Translations under genes and position numbers: made by a program
Source: Paenibacillus sp. MBLB1832
GTDB taxonomy: Bacteria > Bacillota > Bacilli > Paenibacillales > NBRC-103111
Assembly: GCF_032271945.1 (NCBI RefSeq)
Contig: NZ_CP130319.1
Span: 2,871,001-2,935,000, forward strand
DNA length: 64,000 bases
Direction of reading: 5' to 3'
The notes under the pieces: model-generated
Databases searched by the model: none
Told to the model about the DNA's origin: nothing
The model's input: the letters and a program-made list of their open reading frames with translations, nothing else
Shown: in pieces, positions 2,064-34,673 of the stretch
How positions within the stretch are numbered: the first letter of the stretch is position 1
Layout of the letters: every line of letters starts with the position of its first letter

Positions 2064-2519
2064 TTAGAGCCTCGCGAACGTGATGTAATCGACTTGAACT
2101 GGATCTGCATATTCGATCCGAAGTGCCCGGTTAATCTGTCCCCGGTGATATTGCCCATGTAAGAGGACCTGCAACAGGATGTCCCGGACGGATGTTCGGA
2201 ACGGAACCCCGCTCTGATTCGCATAGTCCATCATCTCGTCCAACTCGGATTCCTCGAGCCCTTCGATATAGACGCGATATTGCTCGGCGTTTTCTTCGAA
2301 CATCCTCCGGATCGCCGTCAGGTCTTCCGCTTCCTCCCACAACGTATATTGCGCGCTCCCTTTGCCCTCCAATCGGTACAGCCAGACTCGTTCCGCGACC
2401 GCGACGTGCCGAACCAGCTTCAGAAGGTCCTTGTTCTTTGTCTCACTCTCCTCGAGCGCGTCCAAGATGCGTCCGTCCGCCCAGTACAGGTGGTTCATCA
2501 TGCACTTAATCGTCTTCAT
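2064..2519 (-). CDS. DinB-family four-helix metal-binding protein
   Basis: A 151-residue DinB/YfiT-like protein. It has the N-terminal MNHLYWADGRILDALEE helix, a VRHVAVAERVWLYRLEGK segment and the C-terminal LLHGQYHRGQINRALR helix carrying the paired His of the usual metal site. Members include bacillithiol-S-transferase and other thiol-transferase-like enzymes, but the substrate here cannot be read. It is monocistronic. Its base composition is more GC-rich than the AT-rich gene downstream at 2577-3047. Confidence 0.8.
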   Translation of the reverse strand: MKTIKCMMNHLYWADGRILDALEESETKNKDLLKLVRHVAVAERVWLYRLEGKGSAQYTLWEEAEDLTAIRRMFEENAEQYRVYIEGLEESELDEMMDYANQSGVPFRTSVRDILLQVLLHGQYHRGQINRALRIEYADPVQVDYITFARL

Positions 2520-22379: not shown

Positions 22380-23150
22380 TCAAAAATAATTGCAAGTAAT
22401 CCCCCCATCGATATTAAGAATCGCACCGTTGGTCCAATCCGATTCATCCGATGCTAAATAGATCGCGCTGTTCACAATGTCTTCAGGTTTTCCAAAACGC
22501 CCGCTTGGCTGTCGACCCAGTCGAATCCGCTTCGCTTCCTCATCTTTCAGCAGCCAGTCGGTTAATAAGGGAGTCTCAATCGGTCCTGGACATATCGCAT
22601 TACTGCGAATGCCTTGGGGTCGAAATTGAATCGCCAGCGACCGAGTTAAGGAAACGATGGCTCCTTTGGATGCCGTATAAGCGTCCTGAGGCACACTGCA
22701 TCCCATGAACGCAACGAAAGAGGCGATGTTGATAATGGATCCCTTCTGTTGCTTTACCATATGCGGGATAACATGCTTACACGTAAGAAAAGTTCCTTTC
22801 ACATTGACACCCATGACCCGATCCCATACGTCGACGGTCGTATGAAGGACAGAGCCGTCCTCCGAAGGCATAATGCCTGCATTATTATAGAGAACATCCA
22901 CTTTACCGTAGTGTTGTATGACCTGAGCCACTGCTGTCTGCACACTCTCTTCATTGGCCACGTTGCAAGGAAAGAAAGCCGCGACTCCTCCATGCTCTTG
23001 TATCTCCAAAGTTGCTTTAAGCCCTGCCTGTTCGTTTACCTCAAAGAGTGCAACCTTTGCTCCTTCCCGTGCAAACAAATGAGCCGCCGTCTGCCCCATA
23101 CCGCTGCCTGCACCCGTAATGATGCATACTTTATCCTGTAAACGCCCCAT
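22380..23150 (-). CDS. Short-chain dehydrogenase/reductase (SDR)
   Basis: Classical SDR of 256 residues. The NAD(P)-binding TGAGSGMG is at residues 12-19, the NNAG motif in VLYNNAGIMP and the catalytic pair in YTASKGA. The C-terminus ends NGAILNIDGGITC. The ATG at 23148-23150 has a GGGAGGG site. It follows the glutamine-synthetase-like gene by 16 nt, and is the last gene of the block. It takes the place where PuuB (amine oxidase) would stand, so it may oxidise a gamma-glutamylated amino alcohol. Substrate not determined. Confidence 0.88.
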   Translation of the reverse strand: MGRLQDKVCIITGAGSGMGQTAAHLFAREGAKVALFEVNEQAGLKATLEIQEHGGVAAFFPCNVANEESVQTAVAQVIQHYGKVDVLYNNAGIMPSEDGSVLHTTVDVWDRVMGVNVKGTFLTCKHVIPHMVKQQKGSIINIASFVAFMGCSVPQDAYTASKGAIVSLTRSLAIQFRPQGIRSNAICPGPIETPLLTDWLLKDEEAKRIRLGRQPSGRFGKPEDIVNSAIYLASDESDWTNGAILNIDGGITCNYF

Positions 23151-23166
23151 CGTCGGCCCTCCCTTA

Positions 23167-24555
23167 TCAGATTTGCTCAAAATATCTGGCTCTCTCCCAA
23201 TCGGTGACAAATGTATTCAAAGCCTGCTGCTCCACTTTAGCCATGTTGTAGTAATGGTCTGTCACTTGATCTCCGAGTGCGCTGCGCACAATCGGACTTT
23301 CCTTCCAAAGCTCCATTGCTTCATACAGCGACGCCGGAACACGGGGAAGTCCTTTCATGGTGTAGGCGTTTCCTTTCCACTCTGCTGTAGGCTCGATCCC
23401 ATTCTCGATGCCATATAAGCCGGCAGCGATCATCGCCGAGTAGGCGAGATAAGGGTTCATATCTGCGCCGGGAATTCGGTTTTCAATTCGCAGGCTTTGT
23501 TGATCCCCAACAATTCGCAAGCCGGAGGTTCGATTATCATGGCTCCAGACGATATGTACAGGTGCCCAGCTATCAGGGGCAAAACGTTTGTATGAATTCA
23601 CATTTGGGGCGAAAAAAAGAGAAAAATCGCGTGTGCACGCTAAGATACCGCCTAGAAAATACTTCATCGTCTGTGACATCCCGTACGGCTGCTCAGCAGC
23701 GTCGTAAAATAGATTCTGTTCTCCCTGTAGGTCCCATAAACTGATGTGGATATGACCGCTCGATCCTGTCCACCCATTATGGGGTTTGGCCATGAAGGTC
23801 ACCGCATGCTCATGCTGCATGCAAATCTCTTTGACCCCGTGCTTTAGCATGACATGCCGATCGGCAGAAGTGAGGGCATCCGCATACAACATATTAATCT
23901 CATGCTGCCCAACCGCCGCTTCCCCCTTCGTCGATTCAATCGGAATTCCCGCCGCATTCATATGATTTCTGATTTTCCGATAAAGCGGCTCGTTGCGTGT
24001 TCCCTGCAGCAAATTATAATCCTCGTTATAGTGACCTGAGGTCTGCATATGCTGGTAACCTTTATCATGAATGTTCTCATACGATTCTTTGAATAAATAA
24101 AATTCAAGCTCGCTCGCCATCATCAAGCGAAATCCCTTTTGTTCCGCTCTTAACATTTGCTTTTTAAGAATATTGCGCGGTGCAATACCGATGGGGGAGC
24201 CTGCTTTTTCATCTGCGACATCGCAGAGGACCATTGCTGTCTTTTCCAGCCAAGGGATGACGCGCAAAGTGGACCAATCGGGGCTCGCTAACCAATCTCC
24301 GTAGCCGGATTCCCAATTCATCTGCTCGTACCCGCTGGGAGTGTTCATCTCCATGTCGGTTCCAAGTAAATATGTACAGAAGTGAGTCCCTTTGGACTGC
24401 ACATTGCGTAAATAAAATTCGCCAGTAAGTCGTTTGCCCATCAATCGGCCCTGCATATCGCAAAAGGCAATCATCACCGTATCAATAAGCCCTGATTGAA
24501 TGGCCTGTTCCAGCTCCGCTGGAGTAATCAGCCCTGAAAGCCGGTTCTCATCCAT
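23167..24555 (-). CDS. Glutamine-synthetase-family gamma-glutamyl-amine ligase (PuuA-like)
   Basis: A 462-residue GS-fold ligase. Conserved ATP/glutamate-site blocks are present: MASELEFYLF, GEAAVGQHEINMLYADAL, VTFMAKPHNGWTGSSGHIHI, RIVGDQQSLRIENRIPGADM (the metal-binding Arg/Glu block) and NPYLAYSAMIAAGLYGIE. Position among puuD- and puuC-like genes argues for gamma-glutamylation of an amine rather than ammonia assimilation. The ATG at 24553-24555 has AAGGAGG eight bases upstream. The amine cannot be read; putrescine, ethanolamine or an aromatic amine are all possible. Confidence 0.85.
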   Translation of the reverse strand: MDENRLSGLITPAELEQAIQSGLIDTVMIAFCDMQGRLMGKRLTGEFYLRNVQSKGTHFCTYLLGTDMEMNTPSGYEQMNWESGYGDWLASPDWSTLRVIPWLEKTAMVLCDVADEKAGSPIGIAPRNILKKQMLRAEQKGFRLMMASELEFYLFKESYENIHDKGYQHMQTSGHYNEDYNLLQGTRNEPLYRKIRNHMNAAGIPIESTKGEAAVGQHEINMLYADALTSADRHVMLKHGVKEICMQHEHAVTFMAKPHNGWTGSSGHIHISLWDLQGEQNLFYDAAEQPYGMSQTMKYFLGGILACTRDFSLFFAPNVNSYKRFAPDSWAPVHIVWSHDNRTSGLRIVGDQQSLRIENRIPGADMNPYLAYSAMIAAGLYGIENGIEPTAEWKGNAYTMKGLPRVPASLYEAMELWKESPIVRSALGDQVTDHYYNMAKVEQQALNTFVTDWERARYFEQI

Positions 24556-24585
24556 AGACATCCCCTCCTTCGGAAACGTCAGCAT

Positions 24586-26043
24586 TTAATCCTCTATTTT
24601 TAAATGGATATACTTCAGATCTAAAAATTCCTCCAAGCCATGATGTCCGCCTTCGCGTCCCATTCCGCTTTCCTTGATTCCGCCAAATGGCGCTTGAGGA
24701 ACACTGAGCGATGTTCCGTTGACCGCGACCATACCGAATTCCAGCCTTTCACACACACGGTATACTCGGCTCACATCACGCGTAAACAAATAGGCGGCCA
24801 ATCCATATGGCGTATTATTGCAGCGGGCGATCACTTCTTCTTCGGATTGAAAAGCGAGTATAGGCGCGACAGGGCCGAAAATCTCCTCTTTCGTAAGTGC
24901 CATTTCATCATGAACATCGTCTAACACGGTTGGGGCGTAAAAATAACCCTTCGCATAGTCACCTTCCTCTAATCGATGCCCGCCTGTTAAAATTTTGGCC
25001 CCTTTCGCAGCAGCTTCGCTTACTAGGCGTTCTACTCTTTCAAGGGCTGCCTGATCGATCAAGGGACCTACGTCCATCCCCAATTCCGTTCCAACCCCCA
25101 CTCGAAGTTGGCGAACGTTCGAAACGATTTTCTCACTCAAAGATGCCCGAATGTCTTCATGCGCGTAAATTAAATTAATGCCATTACAGACTTGGCCGCA
25201 GTTCTCGAATTTATTGCTGACAATGCAGTCTGCCGCTAGGTCCAGATCGGCATCAGGAAAAACAAGCACTGGCGCAATCCCTCCAAGCTCTAAGGAAAGC
25301 CGTTTTAACTGCTTAGAAGCGCTTTGCATGATGTGCTTGCCCACTTCAGTTGAACCTGTGAATGAAATTTTACGCACCCGGGAGTCGGTTAAGAGGACTT
25401 GGCCTATCTCAGTTGCATCTCCCGTTACGAGATTAGCCACACCATTTGGAAGTCCAGTCTCGATCAACAGCTGAAACAGCGCCACAGCGATTAACGGCGT
25501 TTGACGAGCCGGCTTGACAACAACCGTGCAGCCTGCAGCCAGAGCCGGAGCGACCTTGCGGACCACCATGGCGGCAGGATAATTCCAAGGGGTAATCATG
25601 CCGACGATACCAATGGGCTGACGCCAGACCATGATTCGCTGATTTTTGCTGGAGCCCGGTATTGTTTCTCCGTAGATCCGCTTCCCTTCTTCCGCATACC
25701 ACCTAATAAACTCTGCCGAACCCTCCAGCTCCCCTTTTGCTTCTTCGACCGGCTTACCCTGCTCCTTGGACATCAAGATGGACAGCTCATCCCGATGCAG
25801 CAAAATTCGGTCCGCCCATTCGCAGAGATAGCGGCCACGTTCTTTCGCTGTTAGCTGCCTCCATGCGGTCAGGGCCTGATCTGCGGCGTCGACCGCTTTC
25901 ATAGCGGCTTCCCCACCGCCCTTGGGAACTTTGCCAACCACCTCTCCAGTGGCGGGATTGTAGACCCTCATACTTTCTGGCAGCACAATTTGCTCCCCGT
26001 TAATCCATAGAAAGTTCCATTTTTTCTGATCCCCAGTTGTCAC
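24586..26043 (-). CDS. NAD-dependent aldehyde dehydrogenase (PuuC/gabD-like)
   Basis: An ALDH of 485 residues. Conserved features: GMITPWNYPAAMVVRKVAPA, the FTGSTEVGKHI cofactor loop, the general base Glu in SLELGGIAPVLVF, the catalytic Cys in ENCGQVCNG, and KEEIFGPVAPIL. The GTG start overlaps the stop codon of the puuD-like gene (GTGA), showing translational coupling. In a gamma-glutamyl pathway it would oxidise gamma-glutamyl-aminoaldehyde to the acid that PuuD then hydrolyses. Succinate semialdehyde dehydrogenase activity is an alternative. Confidence 0.88.
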   Translation of the reverse strand: MTTGDQKKWNFLWINGEQIVLPESMRVYNPATGEVVGKVPKGGGEAAMKAVDAADQALTAWRQLTAKERGRYLCEWADRILLHRDELSILMSKEQGKPVEEAKGELEGSAEFIRWYAEEGKRIYGETIPGSSKNQRIMVWRQPIGIVGMITPWNYPAAMVVRKVAPALAAGCTVVVKPARQTPLIAVALFQLLIETGLPNGVANLVTGDATEIGQVLLTDSRVRKISFTGSTEVGKHIMQSASKQLKRLSLELGGIAPVLVFPDADLDLAADCIVSNKFENCGQVCNGINLIYAHEDIRASLSEKIVSNVRQLRVGVGTELGMDVGPLIDQAALERVERLVSEAAAKGAKILTGGHRLEEGDYAKGYFYAPTVLDDVHDEMALTKEEIFGPVAPILAFQSEEEVIARCNNTPYGLAAYLFTRDVSRVYRVCERLEFGMVAVNGTSLSVPQAPFGGIKESGMGREGGHHGLEEFLDLKYIHLKIED

Positions 26044-26798
26044 GGTGATCCCCCTCCGTTCACTTGATCGATGAGCCATCGGAAAGGTATGAGTCCTTCC
26101 TCATGCTTCACCGCCATCATCTCCGGATGCCACTGCACTGCCAATAAGTTCGGATGATTAGGATGAATGAGAGCTTCAATAATCCCATCATCTGCAACGG
26201 CCGCCGCTTCAAGCCCAGCTCCGAGCTGATTGACTGCTTGATGATGGTAGCTGTTCGTTCGGATTTCATTAGCCTGGTAAAGCTTCTTAAGGGACGGTGT
26301 CAGCAGCTTAACCCGATGACCCAAATACCACCGAGGCGCACGTGAAAATTGATGAGCCAGTACATGTTCACCATGATCAGATATGTCTACATATAACGTG
26401 CCGCCGAAGCACACATTCAAAAGCTGCATCCCTCTGCAAATAGCGAGTATCGGCTTATGAAGGCGCAGAGCTTCTTCGATCAATGCAAGCTCAAAATAAT
26501 CCCGCTCCGGGGTGATCGTCCAACAGCGAAGATCTGGACTCGAGCCGTACAGCTGCGGATCAATATCCTCCCCGCCTGCCAAAATCAATCCATCGATTGC
26601 CTGCAGAATCTCAGAACAAGTTGAACGATCCCCAACTGGGATACCAATTGGTATGGCCCCAACCTGCTTCACCGCCTGGATATAATCGTGGCCAATGACG
26701 CTGAAGCCTTGTCCCTTCACTCCTCGAAAGGTACCGCCGACGCCTTCCTCTCCAGGCACATGATAACCCGTTATTCCGATTAGCGGCTTTTTCCTCAT
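26040..26798 (-). CDS. Gamma-glutamyl hydrolase of peptidase family C26 (PuuD-like)
   Basis: Class I glutamine-amidotransferase-like hydrolase of 252 residues. The nucleophile C121 is in PILAICRGMQLLNVC; the His/Glu partner is in AVQWHPEMM near the C-terminus. The substrate-binding GGEDIDPQLYG loop is typical of PuuD. It frees glutamate from gamma-glutamyl-amino acids. The ATG at 26796-26798 with AGAGGTG before it is preferred. It is 79 nt downstream of scoB and overlaps the ALDH gene. Confidence 0.9.
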   Translation of the reverse strand: MRKKPLIGITGYHVPGEEGVGGTFRGVKGQGFSVIGHDYIQAVKQVGAIPIGIPVGDRSTCSEILQAIDGLILAGGEDIDPQLYGSSPDLRCWTITPERDYFELALIEEALRLHKPILAICRGMQLLNVCFGGTLYVDISDHGEHVLAHQFSRAPRWYLGHRVKLLTPSLKKLYQANEIRTNSYHHQAVNQLGAGLEAAAVADDGIIEALIHPNHPNLLAVQWHPEMMAVKHEEGLIPFRWLIDQVNGGGSP

Positions 26799-26877
26799 CG
26801 CTACACCTCTTCTCTCCACTATGTTATTCGGAGTGAATGAAACACATAACCTGTTGGTATGGAAAAGAGAGGCATAG

Positions 26878-27525
26878 TTACACCTTAAGGAGAGGAGACA
26901 CGCTGTAAGCTGCCTCGGTCTTTGCAGCTACGTCTGCCAGAGTGGCGTCAGGCTGTAACGCTACCAGAATCATGCCATTCTCATTGAAGTCAAACACGGC
27001 CAAATCCGTAATAAGACGGTTCACAACCCTTTTTCCTGTTAATGGAAGTGTACATACGCTTTTCACTTTCGATTCACCGAATTTGTTGACGTGCTCCATG
27101 ATTACGACAATACGTTTAGCCCCGCTGACGAGGTCCATCGCTCCGCCCATTCCTTTGACCATTTTCCCTGGAATCATGTAGTTGGCAAGGTCGCCATTCT
27201 CGGCTACTTCCATACCGCCAAGAATCGCCAGATCCACATGGCCGCCGCGAATCATCGCGAAAGAGTCTGCACTGTCAAAGTATACTGCCCCTTGCATGGC
27301 GGTAATCGTTTCTTTGCCCGCGTTAATCAAATCTGGATCCTCTTCGCCTTGCACCGGGTAAGGACCGATGCCAAGCAGCCCATTCTCAGACTGAAGCATC
27401 ACTTGGATATCCTCAGGTATATAGCTTGCAATCATGGTTGGCATACCGATCCCTAGATTCACATACATACCATCGTGGATTTCTTGAACGGCACGCAGTA
27501 TGATTTTCATACGGTCATCACTCAT
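26878..27525 (-). CDS. scoB: 3-oxoacid CoA-transferase, subunit B
   Basis: Beta subunit (215 residues) of succinyl-CoA:3-oxoacid CoA-transferase. The catalytic Glu lies in the strongly conserved SENGLLGIGPYP block; NLGIGMPT and GGHVDLAILGGMEV are further signatures. Together with ScoA it activates acetoacetate, the end product of tyrosine breakdown, to acetoacetyl-CoA. A GGAGGAGG site precedes the ATG; 30 nt separate it from scoA. Confidence 0.93.
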   Translation of the reverse strand: MSDDRMKIILRAVQEIHDGMYVNLGIGMPTMIASYIPEDIQVMLQSENGLLGIGPYPVQGEEDPDLINAGKETITAMQGAVYFDSADSFAMIRGGHVDLAILGGMEVAENGDLANYMIPGKMVKGMGGAMDLVSGAKRIVVIMEHVNKFGESKVKSVCTLPLTGKRVVNRLITDLAVFDFNENGMILVALQPDATLADVAAKTEAAYSVSPLLKV

Positions 27526-27555: not shown

Positions 27556-28251
27556 TTATACGCTCCGCACCTTGAGGCGCTCAATCCGTTTGACGTTGCT
27601 GACGCACTTCACAACGCGCTGTACGTAGATGCCTGGCGTATGAATATCATTCGGATCCAGCTCTCCCACGCCTACGATTTCTTCCGCTTCTACAATCGTA
27701 ATTTTGCCAGCCGTTGCCGCGATCGGGTTAAAATTGCGGGCCGTTTTTCTGAAAATGAGGTTGCCTAGCGGGTCCGCTTTCCAAGCTTTGACTAAGGCAA
27801 AATCGCCAACGATGCCCCGTTCCAAGATGTAGGTGCGTCCGTCAAACGTCTCATGCGGCTTGCCTTCCGCGACTAAAGTGCCTACCCCAGTCGCTGTATA
27901 GAAGCCTGGTATACCTGCACCGCCAGCTCGGATTCGTTCTGCCAGCGTCCCCTGCGGTACGAGCTCCACTTCCAGCTCGCCGCTTAGGAACTGCTTCTCG
28001 AACGTTCTATTTTCACCGACATAAGAAGATACCATTTTCTTAATTTGTTTGTTGGCTAGCAGCAGGCCAAGTCCCCAATCGTCCACGCCGCAGTTGTTAC
28101 TAACCACGGTTAGTTGGTTAGTCCCTTGTATTTTCAAAGCCTCTATAAGCGTTTCTGGAATGCCGCACAACCCGAATCCCCCAACAACCAGCGTGGATCC
28201 TTCCCGAATATCCTGAATGGCTTCCTCAACCGAATGAATCAGTTTATTCAT
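27556..28251 (-). CDS. scoA: 3-oxoacid CoA-transferase, subunit A
   Basis: Alpha subunit (231 residues). Diagnostic segments are [32 protein letters not shown] and [21 protein letters not shown]. The ATG at 28249-28251 lies inside the last codons of the phenylalanine hydroxylase gene, giving an 8-base overlap. This links CoA activation of acetoacetate directly to aromatic amino acid breakdown. Confidence 0.93.
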
Positions 28252-29989
28252 CGCGGTCCTCTCCTGTTTGCGCATAAATGACTGAAAGTCCATTGTTTAT
28301 TAGGTTAGTAAAAGAAGCCACCTTACTTAACTCATTCAACTCTTCTTTAATTGGTAATTCCAAATGTTTCAATGACAGTTTAGACGCCGCTAATTCAAGT
28401 AACTCTAGCCGTAGTAGCCAGTCATTCGGATAAGAAAGATGAAGTTGATTATTAATGTCATTAAGTACTTGAATACTTTCGTTGGTGAAAGTGTTGTTCT
28501 CTCTTATTGTTGCAACTTGCTGATAGAGCATTTCTAATTCGGTGAGAGAAGCAGGTGGCTCTTTGATAGTTTCAGCTTGCTGAAGGGTTTCACTAAAGTA
28601 GGAAGCAGGGTCAGCAGCACCCGGATATGCGCAAACAATTCGCGAGCCAACGGCCATATCATAAGTGCCCCATTCCTTCTTAAATAGCTCATGTCCATCC
28701 AATGTCACGGTACAATCCTCGAATGAAATTAAAATGACTTTTTGATTGTCTTTGATGATACTTTTAATGCGTCCAGAAACGCGTATACCGCTTACAAACA
28801 AGAGATCAACGAAATTTCCTTCAACAATACTCAAATTTACAAGTGCTTGATCATCGCACGCTTCTAAGGCAATATTTCCTTGCAGCATACCAATTGGCGT
28901 ACCAAATCCTTTAGCATGATAGTCTTTTCCGTGACCTTTCAATTGTTGGTTATGAACTGAAAGCGCGGTTTCACCTGTTGTGTTCACATAGATCGCTTCA
29001 CCGTTCTTATCCTTTACTAGTGCATGAACGATGCCCGTTACGCTGATGCTGGAATTGAATTCGAAGGTGGCAACATTTCTCGAGCGCAGTGCTTTCTCTA
29101 GACTTTCCGTTCCGCCAACTCGGAATGCCATCGTATTCGCTAGAAATTCGGCGCCAGCCATTAATTCTTCAAAGCTATTACAAACAAATAATTTAGTTTG
29201 CATCTCTGTCACCGTTTTTGGGCTCGCTATACACGCTTCAACAGAGTACGGCAATTTCACTACTGCTTCTGTAAAACAATGCTTGCTTTCACCAACGGAA
29301 GACAATAAACCGGCGCCGTAAATTTTCGGATTATCCATGTCCCCCATCAGTCCATATTCAACCGTAGCCCAGAATAAACGGGATACTTTCTCTGCTTCCG
29401 ACAGATCGATGATCGCATTTTGTTTTTCCTCAACGAATTTTTGGGCGGCCGCTATTTCTTCAACCGTTGATTTTGGATCCTCCTTGATGATCGTTAATTG
29501 CCGAAGCGCCTCGAATACTTCCCGATTTTCCTTCATGGAAAAAGCCTTTGCGCCGATCGAGCCGATGGTTTGCACATACGCCCTATATTCCCGATCAAAC
29601 AAGATGGGCGCATGCCCTGCCGCTTCATGAATAATGTCTGGGGCAGGCGTGTATTCAATGTTCGTTAATTTTCTGATTTCTGTTGCGATAGGTAAGATTC
29701 TGTTCGCCAGCAGTTCATAAAAGACAGAGCCTGGGATCAATCCATTTACAATCGCCGCGCCCCATCCAATTTTCGAAAGACACGTATTCATCTCTGAAAC
29801 GCGAGGTATTTTCTCTGTTTGAATACCTGACTGTAGGAGTCCGTCTACAAATGCAGAGTGAGCTGTATGAAGTAAAGCATGATGATTCTGACGCATGACA
29901 TATCGCCATACGGCATGATCAATGGGGGTATACCTATCATAATGTTGCTCTGTTACAAATGGTTTTAAATGAGTTGGAATCATTTTCAT
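28244..29989 (-). CDS. phhA: Aromatic amino acid hydroxylase (phenylalanine 4-monooxygenase), long form
   Basis: Pterin-dependent hydroxylase of 581 residues. The iron facial triad is visible: H121 and H126 in [16 protein letters not shown] and E211 in [11 protein letters not shown]. The first 300 residues are the catalytic domain; the remaining 280 form the extension seen in Bacillus-type members and absent from the short proteobacterial enzyme (about 270-300 residues). It would turn phenylalanine into tyrosine, feeding the homogentisate route. The ATG at 29987-29989 has GAGGGAG before it. It needs a tetrahydropterin recycling system not seen here. Confidence 0.88.
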
Positions 29990-30003
29990 ATCAACAACTC
30001 CCT

Positions 30004-31162
30004 CTATTTTTGAACCCAACTGTACGGATATTTGTGGTCCTCTAATTGTAAAGCTCCTTTCACCACCCGTAGTGGACGGAAGGTATCAATCATAACCGCT
30101 AGCTCTAACGTCTCTTTTTTACCAATGCTGGCTTCAATTTTTCCAGGATGCGGTCCATGCGGTATTCCAGACGGATGCAGGGTAATCGAGCCTTCCTTCA
30201 CGCCTTTGCGGCTCATAAAATTGCCTTGGACATAGTAGAGCACCTCATCACTATCCACATTGCTATGAAAATACGGAGCTGGAATGGATTCCGGATGGTA
30301 ATCAAATAATCTCGGAACGAACGAGCAGACAACAAAGTTATTCCCCTCAAACGTTTGGTGTGTGGGTGGCGGCATGTGAATTCGACCTGTAATCGGTTCA
30401 AAATCTCCGATGTTGAAAATATAAGGATACAAATAGCCATCCCAACCCACGACGTTACATGGATGATGGTTGTAGATATGGGTGTGTAAATACCCTCTGC
30501 TTTTGGTTCTAACCTCAAATTCGCCAACATCTGTGTGGGTTTCCAGAGTTTCAGGAAGTCGAATATCTCTCTCACAGAAAGGGCTATGCTCTAGGAGCTG
30601 TCCATGCTCGTTCCGGTAGCGCTTCGGTGTGCTTACCCAGCTATTCGTTTCTATGTTTAAAAATTTGGATTCGCCTGGCTCCGGAAACGATTCGATAAAT
30701 CGTACCCACTGGAATCACGATATAGTCCCCTGGACGGTAGCTGAGGTTACCAAACATAGACTCAACTTTTCCCGACCCGCGATGAGCAAATAACAATTCA
30801 TCCCCGTCAGCGTTACGATAATAATAATCCATGGTTTGCGTCGGGTTAGAAACGGATATTAAAATATCTTCATTTCCAAGCAGATAGTACCTGCCATTTA
30901 TCGCATCCCCTGTATCTAAGTACTGTCCCGCCAAGAAGTGCCTGCATGTCAACGCGCCTTGTTCTTCGTACTCTAGCTTGAAGGGAGCGTAGATATTGGA
31001 CTTCACGATGTCCGTCGGAGCGGAATGATGATAAAGAATAGACTGTATGCCCGAAAAGCCCTTCGTACCCATCACTTGTTCCCGGTACAAAGAGCCATCC
31101 TGTTTCTTGAACTGCGTATGTCTTTTCTTGGGAATTTCACCCATGCGGTGATAAAAAGGCAT
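30004..31162 (-). pseudogene. hmgA: Homogentisate 1,2-dioxygenase with a one-base frameshift
   Basis: Cupin-type ring-cleaving dioxygenase of about 386 codons when repaired. The N-half (MPFYHRMGEIPKKRHTQFKK to PVGTIYRIVS) and C-half (EPGESKFLNIETNSW, then THIYNHHPCNVVGWDGYLYP, PYFHSNVDSDEVLYYVQGNF and HPSGIPHGPHPGK with its metal-binding His/Glu) are in different frames. The shift falls at the CCGG of 30681-30684: TCCGGAGCC where TCC GAG CCA would keep the frame, so one extra G is enough. Total length 1159 is 3n+1, as expected. A good AGGAGGAAGG site precedes the ATG. Either a real mutation or a base error; flanks show no other damage. Confidence 0.88.
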
Positions 31163-31259: not shown

Positions 31260-31324
31260 AAAACTTGCTTCGTAAGCATCAGCTAAAAGTTTTCGTGAGA
31301 AAACTTACTTCGTAAGCATTAGCT
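31260..31324. repeat. Two 25-base direct repeats at the fahA 3' end
   Basis: AAAACTTGCTTCGTAAGCAT-CAGCT at 31260-31284 and AAAACTTACTTCGTAAGCAT-TAGCT at 31300-31324 differ at only two positions and are 40 bases apart. Each contains a short hairpin (CTTAC-GAA-GTAAG in the second copy). The second overlaps the fumarylacetoacetase stop codon. Confidence 0.75.
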
Positions 31325-32584
31325 TAGAGCGGCTGGCAGCACTCGGCCAGTCACCTCGCCGAAGCCGACTCTATATCCGTCTCCCTGACACCAGCCAGTC
31401 ATCGTTATTGTGTCGCCATCCTCCAGCCAAGTACGTTCATCGCCATTCTCCAATTGCAGCGGCTCGCTGCCACGCCATGTTAATTCCAACATGCAGCCTC
31501 GTGAGTCCTTCGCAGGACCGCTAATCGTTCCGGAAGCCAACAAATCCCCGGGCCGTAAATTGCAGCCGCCTATCGTATGATGAGCAATCTGCTGTGCCAT
31601 CGTCCAATACAAATAGCTGAAGTTGCTGGCTGAGATACGGTTCCGTCGCTTCATGGCATCGCTCTGCAAATAAACCTCCAACTGGATATTGAAAGAGCCT
31701 GGAGAGTTCTGCCGCAAATAGGGAAGCGGCTCAGGATCCTGCTTCGGAGCAGGAACACGAAATGGTTCTAAGGCTTCAAAAGGCACGACCCATGGCGATA
31801 TCGAGGTAGCAAAGTTTTTGGCTAGGAAAGGGCCTAGCGGCTGGTATTCCCACGATTGGATATCCCGCGCGCTCCAATCATTGACGAGTACAAGCCCAAA
31901 TATATAATCTTCTGCTTTTTCAATTGAGACCGGCAAACCTTGTTCATTTCCTGTTCCAATCAGACAGCCCACTTCCAATTCGAAGTCTAGCTGACGGCTC
32001 AATCCGAAAATAGGCGGAGCCGAGTCCAGCGGCTTCATCTGTCCTTGCGGGCGACGGACATCCGTGCCGCTGATCACGATGGAGCTGGCTCTCCCGTGAT
32101 AACCGACGGGCAGATGCAGCCAGTTCGGCATAAGCGCATTCTCCTTGCCACGGAACATGGTGCCAACATTCGTTGCATGATCTTTGGAAGCATAGAAGTC
32201 TGTATAATCGCCAATCTCTACAGGCAGCAGCAACTCAACGTCGTTTTGAAGATACAGGGCTGTGGCTCGTAGTCCTTTGTTATCACGTAATGCGGGTTCT
32301 TCCACATCCAGCAGACGCCTAATCGTCAACCGAAGTTCCTTCCAAACTGGACGGCTATAGGACATTAACGCATTCAACGATGGCTGACTGAATATGTTTT
32401 TGCCGGACACTGCCGTTTGGTCAAAATATCCAGCACTGTCTAACTGGGCCAGATCCAGCACATAGTTCCCGATCGCTACGCCGATTCGCGGCTGTCCGCC
32501 TTTAAGGGGACGAAATACACCATATGGCAGGTTTTGTATAGGAAAATGCGAATCTGGCTCCACGTCAATAAAAGAACGGACCAT
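31319..32584 (-). CDS. fahA: Fumarylacetoacetase
   Basis: A 421-residue FAH. The N-terminal domain (LPYGVFRPLKGGQPRIGVAI) and the metal-binding catalytic domain are complete: DYTDFYASKDHATNVGTMFR, PVGYHGRASSIVISG, QLDFELEVGCLIG with the acidic metal ligands, VLVNDWSARDIQSWEYQPLG and PGDLLASGTISGP. It cleaves fumarylacetoacetate to fumarate and acetoacetate. The ATG at 32582-32584 has GAGGAG nine bases upstream; the gene follows the unknown 317-residue gene by 4 nt. Confidence 0.93.
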   Translation of the reverse strand: MVRSFIDVEPDSHFPIQNLPYGVFRPLKGGQPRIGVAIGNYVLDLAQLDSAGYFDQTAVSGKNIFSQPSLNALMSYSRPVWKELRLTIRRLLDVEEPALRDNKGLRATALYLQNDVELLLPVEIGDYTDFYASKDHATNVGTMFRGKENALMPNWLHLPVGYHGRASSIVISGTDVRRPQGQMKPLDSAPPIFGLSRQLDFELEVGCLIGTGNEQGLPVSIEKAEDYIFGLVLVNDWSARDIQSWEYQPLGPFLAKNFATSISPWVVPFEALEPFRVPAPKQDPEPLPYLRQNSPGSFNIQLEVYLQSDAMKRRNRISASNFSYLYWTMAQQIAHHTIGGCNLRPGDLLASGTISGPAKDSRGCMLELTWRGSEPLQLENGDERTWLEDGDTITMTGWCQGDGYRVGFGEVTGRVLPAALS

Positions 32585-32588
32585 GCGA

Positions 32589-33542
32589 TTATCTCCTCTG
32601 CGTAAGGATTTGAAATGCTCGCATCTCGTCACGCGGTTCGTCGAAGCTGCAGCTCCCATAAGAGCACAATCCTTTATTGCGATAGGCCTGGATTTCACAA
32701 GAAGTCATGGAGAGATGCCTCCAATGCAAGCCGTCACTTGAGAATTGGAAACTTTCCGGATTCTCGTCTTCAAGGATTTCCGCGATTGTCTGAATGTCCA
32801 ACTTGTGCGAGTTGGCCAGTAATCCCGCAAAAAACACATTAAGAAATCCATGCATCTTCGTATTGACCTCACCGCGGTATATGCGAACAGGATGATGCAG
32901 CCCTGCGGTAAATTTAAGTGGAAGATTTCTGTCTCTGCACGCCGCCAGAACAAGGGCAACCTGATTAGCTGTAGGAAATGCTTCTGCTGTAACGCCTCCG
33001 GTTCTAAGTTTTATACCAAGCCTAGATCCGCTTGTTACATTATATGCAGCAATTGCATTCAATCCAGCAATCATTCTTGTTTTCCAATCATCATTTAATT
33101 CATCTGTCAATTCGCAGAATATCTGCAAACCTAGCTTGGATGCCCCTCTTCCTATTTCCTCAAGAAGATGATCTTGTAAGGCAATCGGAGGTAACGGCAC
33201 ATCAAGTACATTAATCCGGGCTGCTGCTCTAGCGTGATTCCTAAACGTTTGAATTTTCTCGAAACTTCCCCTCAACAGCTCCATACATTCATCAGTTTCT
33301 CGACTTCGATTCCCAATGACGGAAAGCAGAAGTGGATTATCTTTTGAAAACATAGGTATATAAGGGTCTAACTCATGCAACCGCGTGACTGGGATAATAA
33401 ATTTACCTAACATCCAGCTATCTTGATCGAGACGGTAACCATGGTAATTTTGGATTGCAGCTTCAATCGGCAGCCCCGCCGGAGGAAAAAGTCCTGCATA
33501 ATCAATTAGCTTCTCCATGAAATGCCGAACGCTCGGGTACAT
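32589..33542 (-). CDS. Conserved unknown protein inside the tyrosine-degradation operon
   Basis: A 317-residue soluble protein I cannot assign to a named family. The start MYPSVRHFMEKLIDYAGLFP, then PAGLPIEAAIQNYHGYR, looks conserved-domain-like. Alternating hydrophobic strands (WMLGKFIIPV, LLLSVIG, ARINVLDVPLP, LQIFCELTD, LGIKLRTGGV, LPLKFTAGLHHPVR) suggest a TIM-barrel-like fold, with Lys and His residues at strand ends that could be active-site groups. Two Cys (GLCSYGSCSFDEPRDEM) lie near the end. It lies 15 nt after hppD and 4 nt before fahA. The pathway between HmgA and FahA needs a maleylacetoacetate isomerase, and no GST-type MaiA is present, so this gene is a candidate for that step. 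That is inference from context only. Confidence 0.6.
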   Translation of the reverse strand: MYPSVRHFMEKLIDYAGLFPPAGLPIEAAIQNYHGYRLDQDSWMLGKFIIPVTRLHELDPYIPMFSKDNPLLLSVIGNRSRETDECMELLRGSFEKIQTFRNHARAAARINVLDVPLPPIALQDHLLEEIGRGASKLGLQIFCELTDELNDDWKTRMIAGLNAIAAYNVTSGSRLGIKLRTGGVTAEAFPTANQVALVLAACRDRNLPLKFTAGLHHPVRIYRGEVNTKMHGFLNVFFAGLLANSHKLDIQTIAEILEDENPESFQFSSDGLHWRHLSMTSCEIQAYRNKGLCSYGSCSFDEPRDEMRAFQILTQRR

Positions 33543-33557
33543 CTCTGCACCTCCCTT

Positions 33558-34673
33558 TTACAGATTTCCTCGTCGCGCCTGTTCTCTTTCAATCGATTCA
33601 AACAATGCTTTAAAATTGCCTTCGCCGAAGCCTCTCGATCCTTTGCGCTGAATGATTTCGAAAAATAAAGTTGGACGGTCTACGATAGGCTTTGTGAAAA
33701 TTTGCAATAAATAACCTTCATCGTCACGATCAACCAGAATCTTATTTTCTTGAAGCTTTTGAAGGTCTTCATCGATCGTACCTACGCGTTCGGAAAGCAT
33801 CTCATAGTAGGCATCCGGAGTGTCAAGGAATTCGACGCCGTTAATGCGAAGCTTTTGCACGGTATCCAGAATATCGTTGGTCAATATCGCGACATGCTGA
33901 ACACCTGCGCCATTATTAAATTCAAGGTACTCTTCAATCTGCGATTTACGCTTTCCGGTTGCCGGTTCGTTCAGAGGGAATTTAATTCGTCCCCCATTAT
34001 GCATGACTTTCGACATGAGCGCTGAGTACTCTGTACTGATATCCTTATCATCAAAGTGGATCATTTGCGTAAAACCCATGACGTTCTCGTAATAGGAAAC
34101 CCACGCTTCCATTTGTTCCACATTTCCAACAACGTGATCGACGCCAATCAGGCCTGTTTCTTCATAAGGAATCACATGGTCAATGGGCTGATAACCAGGC
34201 ATGAAAATCCCCTTGTAATTCTTTCTTTCCACAAGCGAATGCACCGTATCGCCGTAAGTTCCTATCATTGCTTTTATCACTATCCCGTTTTCATCCGTTA
34301 AAACTTGCGGCTTATGAATCGGGATAGCCCCTCTAGAGACAGCCTCCATGTAAGCCTTTTCAACATCTACTACACGGAGTGCAATGTCTTTTACGCCTTC
34401 GCCATGCTTTTTCACAAAATCGCTGACCGGATGATCATCTTGGAGCGAACCAGTTACGACAAACCGAGTCTTCTTCTGTTCGAGCACATAAGACACTTTA
34501 TCCCGTTGACCAGTTTCCAACCCTGCATAAGCAATAATTTTGAAACCAAAAGCTCTGCTCAAAAAGTAACTTGTTTGCTTGGCATTCCCAACATACATTT
34601 CGACATAATCAAAGTCATGAATCGGGAAGAAATCCTGCTGCTTTTTGTTTTTGCTCAAAGCTTCCTTTTTCAT
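33558..34673 (-). CDS. hppD: 4-hydroxyphenylpyruvate dioxygenase
   Basis: A 371-residue HPPD with two VOC-fold halves. The iron ligands are H180 (GVDHVVGNVE), H260 (GVQHVAILTNDI) and E339 (PTLFFEIIQRKG). It turns 4-hydroxyphenylpyruvate into homogentisate. First gene of the block, preceded by AAGGAGG and a near-consensus promoter at 34722-34750. An aromatic aminotransferase to supply its substrate is not in the window. Confidence 0.95.
   Translation of the reverse strand: MKKEALSKNKKQQDFFPIHDFDYVEMYVGNAKQTSYFLSRAFGFKIIAYAGLETGQRDKVSYVLEQKKTRFVVTGSLQDDHPVSDFVKKHGEGVKDIALRVVDVEKAYMEAVSRGAIPIHKPQVLTDENGIVIKAMIGTYGDTVHSLVERKNYKGIFMPGYQPIDHVIPYEETGLIGVDHVVGNVEQMEAWVSYYENVMGFTQMIHFDDKDISTEYSALMSKVMHNGGRIKFPLNEPATGKRKSQIEEYLEFNNGAGVQHVAILTNDILDTVQKLRINGVEFLDTPDAYYEMLSERVGTIDEDLQKLQENKILVDRDDEGYLLQIFTKPIVDRPTLFFEIIQRKGSRGFGEGNFKALFESIEREQARRGNL

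Follow-up and report, generated by a model that had tools for sequence, protein, structure and literature searches.

A TIM-barrel protein encoded beside fahA is a predicted glutathione-independent maleylacetoacetate isomerase in bacteria without MaiA

Gene X, which lies between hppD and fahA in a 64,000-nucleotide stretch of the Paenibacillus sp. MBLB1832 genome (contig NZ_CP130319.1, positions 2,871,001 to 2,935,000; hereafter the window), probably encodes the enzyme that isomerizes maleylacetoacetate in the homogentisate pathway of bacteria lacking MaiA, one unrelated to the zeta-class glutathione S-transferases (GSTs). A known reaction would here fall to a new, unrelated protein, and X very probably represents a widespread unnamed family of glutathione-independent maleylacetoacetate isomerases. 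We infer both the reaction and its mechanism from the place of X in the operon, its co-occurrence with fahA, the lack of MaiA in the X genomes tested, a high-confidence TIM-barrel prediction, and a set of invariant residues. The first-pass annotation of this DNA had likewise cast X as the missing isomerase after finding no visible enzyme for the step, and had named a zeta-class GST elsewhere in the genome as evidence that would count against it; no match to TIGR01262 (MaiA, zeta GST) was found at E ≤ 0.001 anywhere in the host genome (5.85 Mb, single contig, 95.6% complete).

The reading frame of gene X runs on the minus strand from an ATG at 33542-33540 to a TAA at 32591-32589 without internal stops (Table 1). 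The spacings that were first reported, 15 nt from the hppD stop to X and 4 nt from X to the fahA ATG (32584), are correct. The surrounding hppD, hmgA, and fahA block stands in part: hppD and fahA are supported by equivalog-level profile matches, and hmgA is present but not intact, being split over two frames in the window vs a single frame in all seven relatives fetched. Unless this reflects an assembly error, the frameshifted hmgA implies that the tyrosine pathway may be dead in this strain; if the break is true, the pathway would stop at homogentisate. At 591 aa, the aromatic amino acid hydroxylase of the window (NF010657) far exceeds the phenylalanine 4-monooxygenase models in length (248-264 positions). 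Immediately after the tyrosine operon (22380-26819, minus strand), SDR, glutamine-synthetase-like, aldehyde dehydrogenase, and gamma-glutamyl-hydrolase-like genes follow in series, as read by eye, in a row that resembles a putrescine/GABA route.

Table 1. Features of the tyrosine operon and of gene X, in window coordinates.
Feature	Position	Strand	Basis or remark
Gene X, predicted glutathione-independent maleylacetoacetate isomerase, 317 aa	32589..33542	-	ORF, conservation, fahA link, predicted structure
hppD–X gap, 15 nt	33543..33557	-	Contains Shine-Dalgarno-like AGGGAGGTG (read by eye)
Invariant Asp14 codon, beta strand 1	33501..33503	-	Alignment and predicted structure
Invariant Glu144 codon, beta strand 5	33111..33113	-	Alignment and predicted structure
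Invariant Lys178 codon, beta strand 6	33009..33011	-	Alignment and predicted structure
Invariant Lys210 codon, beta strand 7	32913..32915	-	Alignment and predicted structure
Invariant Cys298 codon, end of beta strand 8, proposed nucleophile	32649..32651	-	Alignment and predicted structure
hppD, 4-hydroxyphenylpyruvate dioxygenase	33558..34673	-	TIGR01263, 460 bits, equivalog-level
fahA, fumarylacetoacetase	31319..32584	-	TIGR01266, 602 bits, equivalog-level
hmgA, homogentisate 1,2-dioxygenase, in two frames	30004..31162	-	Frame change between 30681 and 30686
Aromatic amino acid (phenylalanine) hydroxylase, biopterin-dependent	28244..30019	-	NF010657, 746 bits
3-Oxoacid CoA-transferase subunit A (would take acetoacetate, a FahA product)	27556..28293	-	TIGR02429
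3-Oxoacid CoA-transferase subunit B	26878..27525	-	TIGR02428

A search for co-occurrence, which the first-pass annotation had suggested, was carried out in the family of the host. X is present in 16 of the 104 genomes, where it is conserved as a protein (50-100% identity among the carriers), and fahA exceeds its curated cut-off in exactly the same 16 genomes; MaiA was found in none of the 104, even at E ≤ 0.001. Identical sets would arise by chance with a probability of 10^-18.4 if the genomes were independent, which they are not. The carriers span three genera and include only a subset of the genomes in the two larger ones, so that the operon is gained and lost as a whole. Among the matches listed for the 16 carrier loci, X is flanked by hppD and fahA when read by eye, and tblastn recovered the order hppD, X, fahA, hmgA in all seven relatives with longer stretches. 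An order-level sample held X in 10 of 149 genomes, and an even sample of the phylum held one X and one fahA among 398 genomes, both in one and the same genome. This matching presence of X and fahA in the family and phylum samples argues for X as the isomerase. No relatives of X were found among viral contigs.

Linkage to fahA extends to distant bacteria. A tblastn search of 72,556 plasmid records recovered X in 24 (Streptomyces 11, Priestia 6, Rhodococcus 2, Pseudonocardia 2, and Kovacikia, Nonomuraea, and Tsukamurella), with fahA directly downstream in every one when coordinates were compared by eye. In four of these genera (Pseudonocardia, Rhodococcus, Nonomuraea, and Tsukamurella) X occupies exactly the position between hmgA and fahA, a placement that also speaks for the isomerase assignment; the order in Priestia is hppD-X-fahA-hisC-hmgA, and in the cyanobacterium Kovacikia the X-fahA pair is transcribed divergently from hppD and hmgA. 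One further match, weak (E ≤ 1) and on a 'Rhizobium' plasmid, did not recur among the 24 records that two other X queries gave and was set aside as chance. On two linear Streptomyces plasmids (L029 and L031), X-fahA is a reduced pair beside a helix-turn-helix gene; neither hmgA nor hppD is annotated within 8 kb on either side.

A genome collection searched with a ten-sequence X alignment gave at least 590 pattern matches, of which 555 were confirmed, and the flanks of the best 80 of these 555 were analyzed. Titles among the 80 loci include Cyanobacteria, Acidobacteria, Gemmatimonadetes, Planctomycetes, Chloroflexi, Ignavibacteria, and a Deltaproteobacterium, among others. Homologues lying mostly away from the pathway genes would have spoken against the original proposal; fahA instead lies within the flank in 65 of these best 80 loci, directly downstream on the same strand in 58 (median gap 19 nt) and farther away in the remaining seven, once on the opposite strand. 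The other 15 loci, five of which reach a contig end at most 0.9 kb downstream of X, all have fahA elsewhere in the same genome, 14 over the cut-off and one as two pieces with a stop, so that none of the 80 loci comes from a genome without a fahA match. Less frequent in the flanks are hppD and hmgA, each in 23 of 80. In 50 genomes hand-picked from the 80 loci for surveys of hmgA and MaiA, the union of two hmgA probes found the gene in 48, and the two genomes without it are metagenome-assembled; the second probe was added because PF04209 detects HmgA of the cyanobacterial and Bacillota type poorly (17 of 50). Both the fahA linkage in relatives and plasmids and the near-constant presence of hmgA favor X as the isomerase. 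At L047, L053, L067, and other acidobacterial X-fahA loci, HmgA weakly matches the Kovacikia type and the genomes match PF04209 strongly, so that X accompanies two divergent types of HmgA.

The description of X as TIM-barrel-like is borne out by structure prediction, which returned a (beta/alpha)8 barrel (pLDDT 94.9) rather than the thioredoxin-like plus helical fold of GSTs. The nearest fold appears to be that of deoxyribose-phosphate aldolase (DERA), a class I aldolase, and the predicted model of X is of the DERA-type TIM barrel; Foldseek alone gave weak, mixed matches (best E 4.7e-4, TM 0.51, pyruvate carboxylase second). A clear unrelated activity, which would have counted against the first-pass proposal, did not emerge from the fold. 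Against Pfam, X and 62 relatives matched 13 families, each in a single member (best E 0.017), taken as chance, and neither DeoC (PF01791; DERA/class I aldolase) nor the DinB/MDMPI profile was matched by any of the 63. Against NCBIfam, one family was matched by 1 of the 63 members (E 0.004), also taken as chance, and GST families by none; a PDB sequence search returned no solved structure under E 0.07. Sequence kinship with DERA was tried and rejected: hhalign runs (local, global, and low-threshold) against 20 DERAs gave probabilities of at most 2.4%, and Lys178 of X was not paired with the strand-6 lysine of DERA in the low-threshold alignment, so that the link to DERA is one of fold. Alignment A4 comprised 62 of the 80 X loci; the DERA alignment of 20 sequences left out L160, L161, L177, L179, L180, L183, L184, and L186 by choice, together with L162 (no open frame) and L170 (wrong frame).

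Comparison with known enzymes sets X apart from each. MaiA/GSTZ1 (TIGR01262) has the reaction and pathway place predicted for X and adjoins fahA in Pseudomonadota loci, but it has the GST fold instead of a TIM barrel, and X is predicted not to need glutathione. DERA/DeoC (TIGR00126) differs in that X has an invariant cysteine ending strand 8 and motifs of its own (RTGG, KxTAGLHH, YGSCS). Mycothiol-dependent maleylpyruvate isomerase catalyzes an analogous cis-trans isomerization of a maleyl keto acid without glutathione, but is of the DinB fold, a helical bundle, whereas X is a predicted TIM barrel with no match to any DinB model. Maleate isomerase, of the Asp/Glu racemase superfamily, carries out a cofactor-free cis-trans isomerization through an active-site cysteine in a fold other than the TIM barrel, and X has no Pfam match to that family.

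Eight residues (D14, E144, K178, R180, K210, T212, H216, and C298) are invariant in all 104 X sequences aligned, which comprised all 80 loci and 24 others, near-identical ones included; His217 and Arg288 are absent from the Rhodococcus sequence in the alignment. In the predicted structure the invariant residues lie on, or shortly after, barrel strands, which adds to the case for an isomerase. By strand count, K178 falls on strand 6, the strand of the Schiff-base lysine in DERA, and K210 falls on strand 7; the two could correspond to the lysine pair of DERA. In MaiA, the glutathione thiol adds to the double bond of maleylacetoacetate at C2, the bond rotates, and the thiol is eliminated. Cys298 could serve as a built-in thiol in X, with the two invariant lysines activating the neighboring ketone. 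X would thereby convert the maleylacetoacetate made by HmgA into the fumarylacetoacetate on which FahA acts: Arg180, Arg288, and His216/217 would hold the substrate carboxylates, Lys178 or Lys210 would polarize the C4 ketone or form an iminium with C4, and the Cys298 thiol would add to C2 as glutathione does in MaiA, after which the C2-C3 bond would rotate and the thiol leave to give the trans product, with no need for free glutathione. That the X family is a cofactor-free isomerase on a DERA-like barrel, in which a lysine iminium and an internal cysteine do the job of MaiA's glutathione, is a tentative reading that we hold with less than even confidence. On that reading X would found an unnamed enzyme family of such isomerases; members of the X family occur in Bacillota, Actinomycetota, and Cyanobacteriota, and also under record titles that name Acidobacteria, Gemmatimonadetes, Planctomycetota, Chloroflexota, Ignavibacteria, and Deltaproteobacteria.

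MaiA is distributed in a complementary manner. It exceeds the cut-off in none of the 50 X genomes surveyed, 38 of which have no match at all, and the remaining 12, of the cyanobacterial group, hold 5 to 15 GST-like matches each, at 90 bits or less (MaiA cut-off 171). X is thus not confined to lineages without GSTs, and a generic GST in these 12 genomes, though under the MaiA cut-off, could catalyze the step. Because GST matches were altogether lacking in most of the X phyla tested, the absence of MaiA cannot be separated from phylum, and the independent events are fewer than the genomes. Conversely, X was found in none of 11 Pseudomonadota fahA plasmid loci, hand-picked among the matches listed (two overlapping sets of 60 of the 115 fahA records); maiA lies within 4 kb in six of them, including L145, which was chosen because its row named maleylacetoacetate isomerase, and neither X nor maiA lies within 4 kb in the other five. 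Both absences, of MaiA from X genomes and of X from Pseudomonadota fahA loci, support the isomerase reading. In a Nocardia farcinica record (L144), hmgA directly precedes fahA, the locus matches neither X nor MaiA, and the record as a whole yielded no X; its isomerase would be either elsewhere or of a third kind, and a third way of isomerizing maleylacetoacetate is possible there. Bacteroidota are often tyrosine degraders. The Nocardia record, the five Pseudomonadota loci with neither gene, the confounding with phylum, and the hmgA frameshift in the window all weaken the reading of X as an isomerase.

Since its tightest link is to fahA rather than to hppD or hmgA, X might instead be an accessory of FahA, acting in folding, complex formation, or tautomer handling, while maleylacetoacetate isomerizes slowly alone or with a small thiol; work on mouse Gstz1 reportedly describes such slow, thiol-driven isomerization. 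We consider this unlikely. One would expect an accessory to persist where MaiA occurs, but X is lacking from the 11 Pseudomonadota fahA loci, and MaiA exceeds its cut-off in no X genome tested (16 in the family sample, 50 in the hand-picked set); X without MaiA, and MaiA without X, is what replacement by an unrelated isomerase predicts and what a FahA accessory does not. The invariant polar set on the barrel strands of X, moreover, looks catalytic.

Also unlikely is a scheme in which another thiol-dependent enzyme, such as a DinB-type bacillithiol or mycothiol transferase or a generic cyanobacterial GST, is the isomerase and X is otherwise employed in the pathway. Mycothiol-dependent maleylpyruvate isomerases with the DinB fold do exist, a maleylpyruvate-isomerase-N protein is encoded within 6 kb of X-fahA on L029 and L031, and N. 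farcinica has an hmgA-fahA locus without X. In the window, a DinB-family gene at 2064-2519 (minus strand), with a weak Mycothiol-S-transferase match, is a candidate bacillithiol enzyme. According to a legend in a study of Streptomyces albidoflavus, the tyrosine genes of that species include a mycothiol-dependent maleylpyruvate isomerase family gene (PMC11012174). The DinB gene of the window, however, is 30 kb off and outside the operon, X is the regular neighbor of fahA in the loci annotated or scanned, and no other step of the pathway is open for X. That X is a DERA-like lyase cleaving maleylacetoacetate by a retro-aldol or retro-Claisen reaction and so bypassing isomerization, as the nearest fold of a class I aldolase and the invariant lysines on strands 6 and 7 might suggest, is highly improbable, as the cleaving enzyme FahA is encoded in the genomes of all 80 X loci, making a second one superfluous, and X has no sequence relation to DERA.

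A 2025 study of Rhodococcus globerulus detected HmgA and HmgB in cells grown on phenylalanine and on 2-hydroxyphenylacetate (PMC11889516); the word 'isomerase' appears twice in its text, both times in the Introduction, which would be compatible with an isomerase that went unrecognized. In the open-access literature, the titles and abstract openings among the matches listed named no such glutathione-independent enzyme, though prior work elsewhere is possible, and nothing there linked maleylacetoacetate with GapMind.

If X is the isomerase, a gap in the textbook pathway would be closed for a large part of bacterial diversity, and the label 'hypothetical protein' would be replaced in many genomes. 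The finding would explain how bacteria without MaiA complete the breakdown of tyrosine, phenylalanine, and homogentisate, and would add an example of a glutathione enzyme replaced by a non-homologous protein, one whose active site is free of cofactors and open to direct tests of the lysine and cysteine roles. Were the more tentative iminium and cysteine mechanism also to be true, X would offer a case of cis-trans isomerization by covalent catalysis in a scaffold like that of the class I aldolases.
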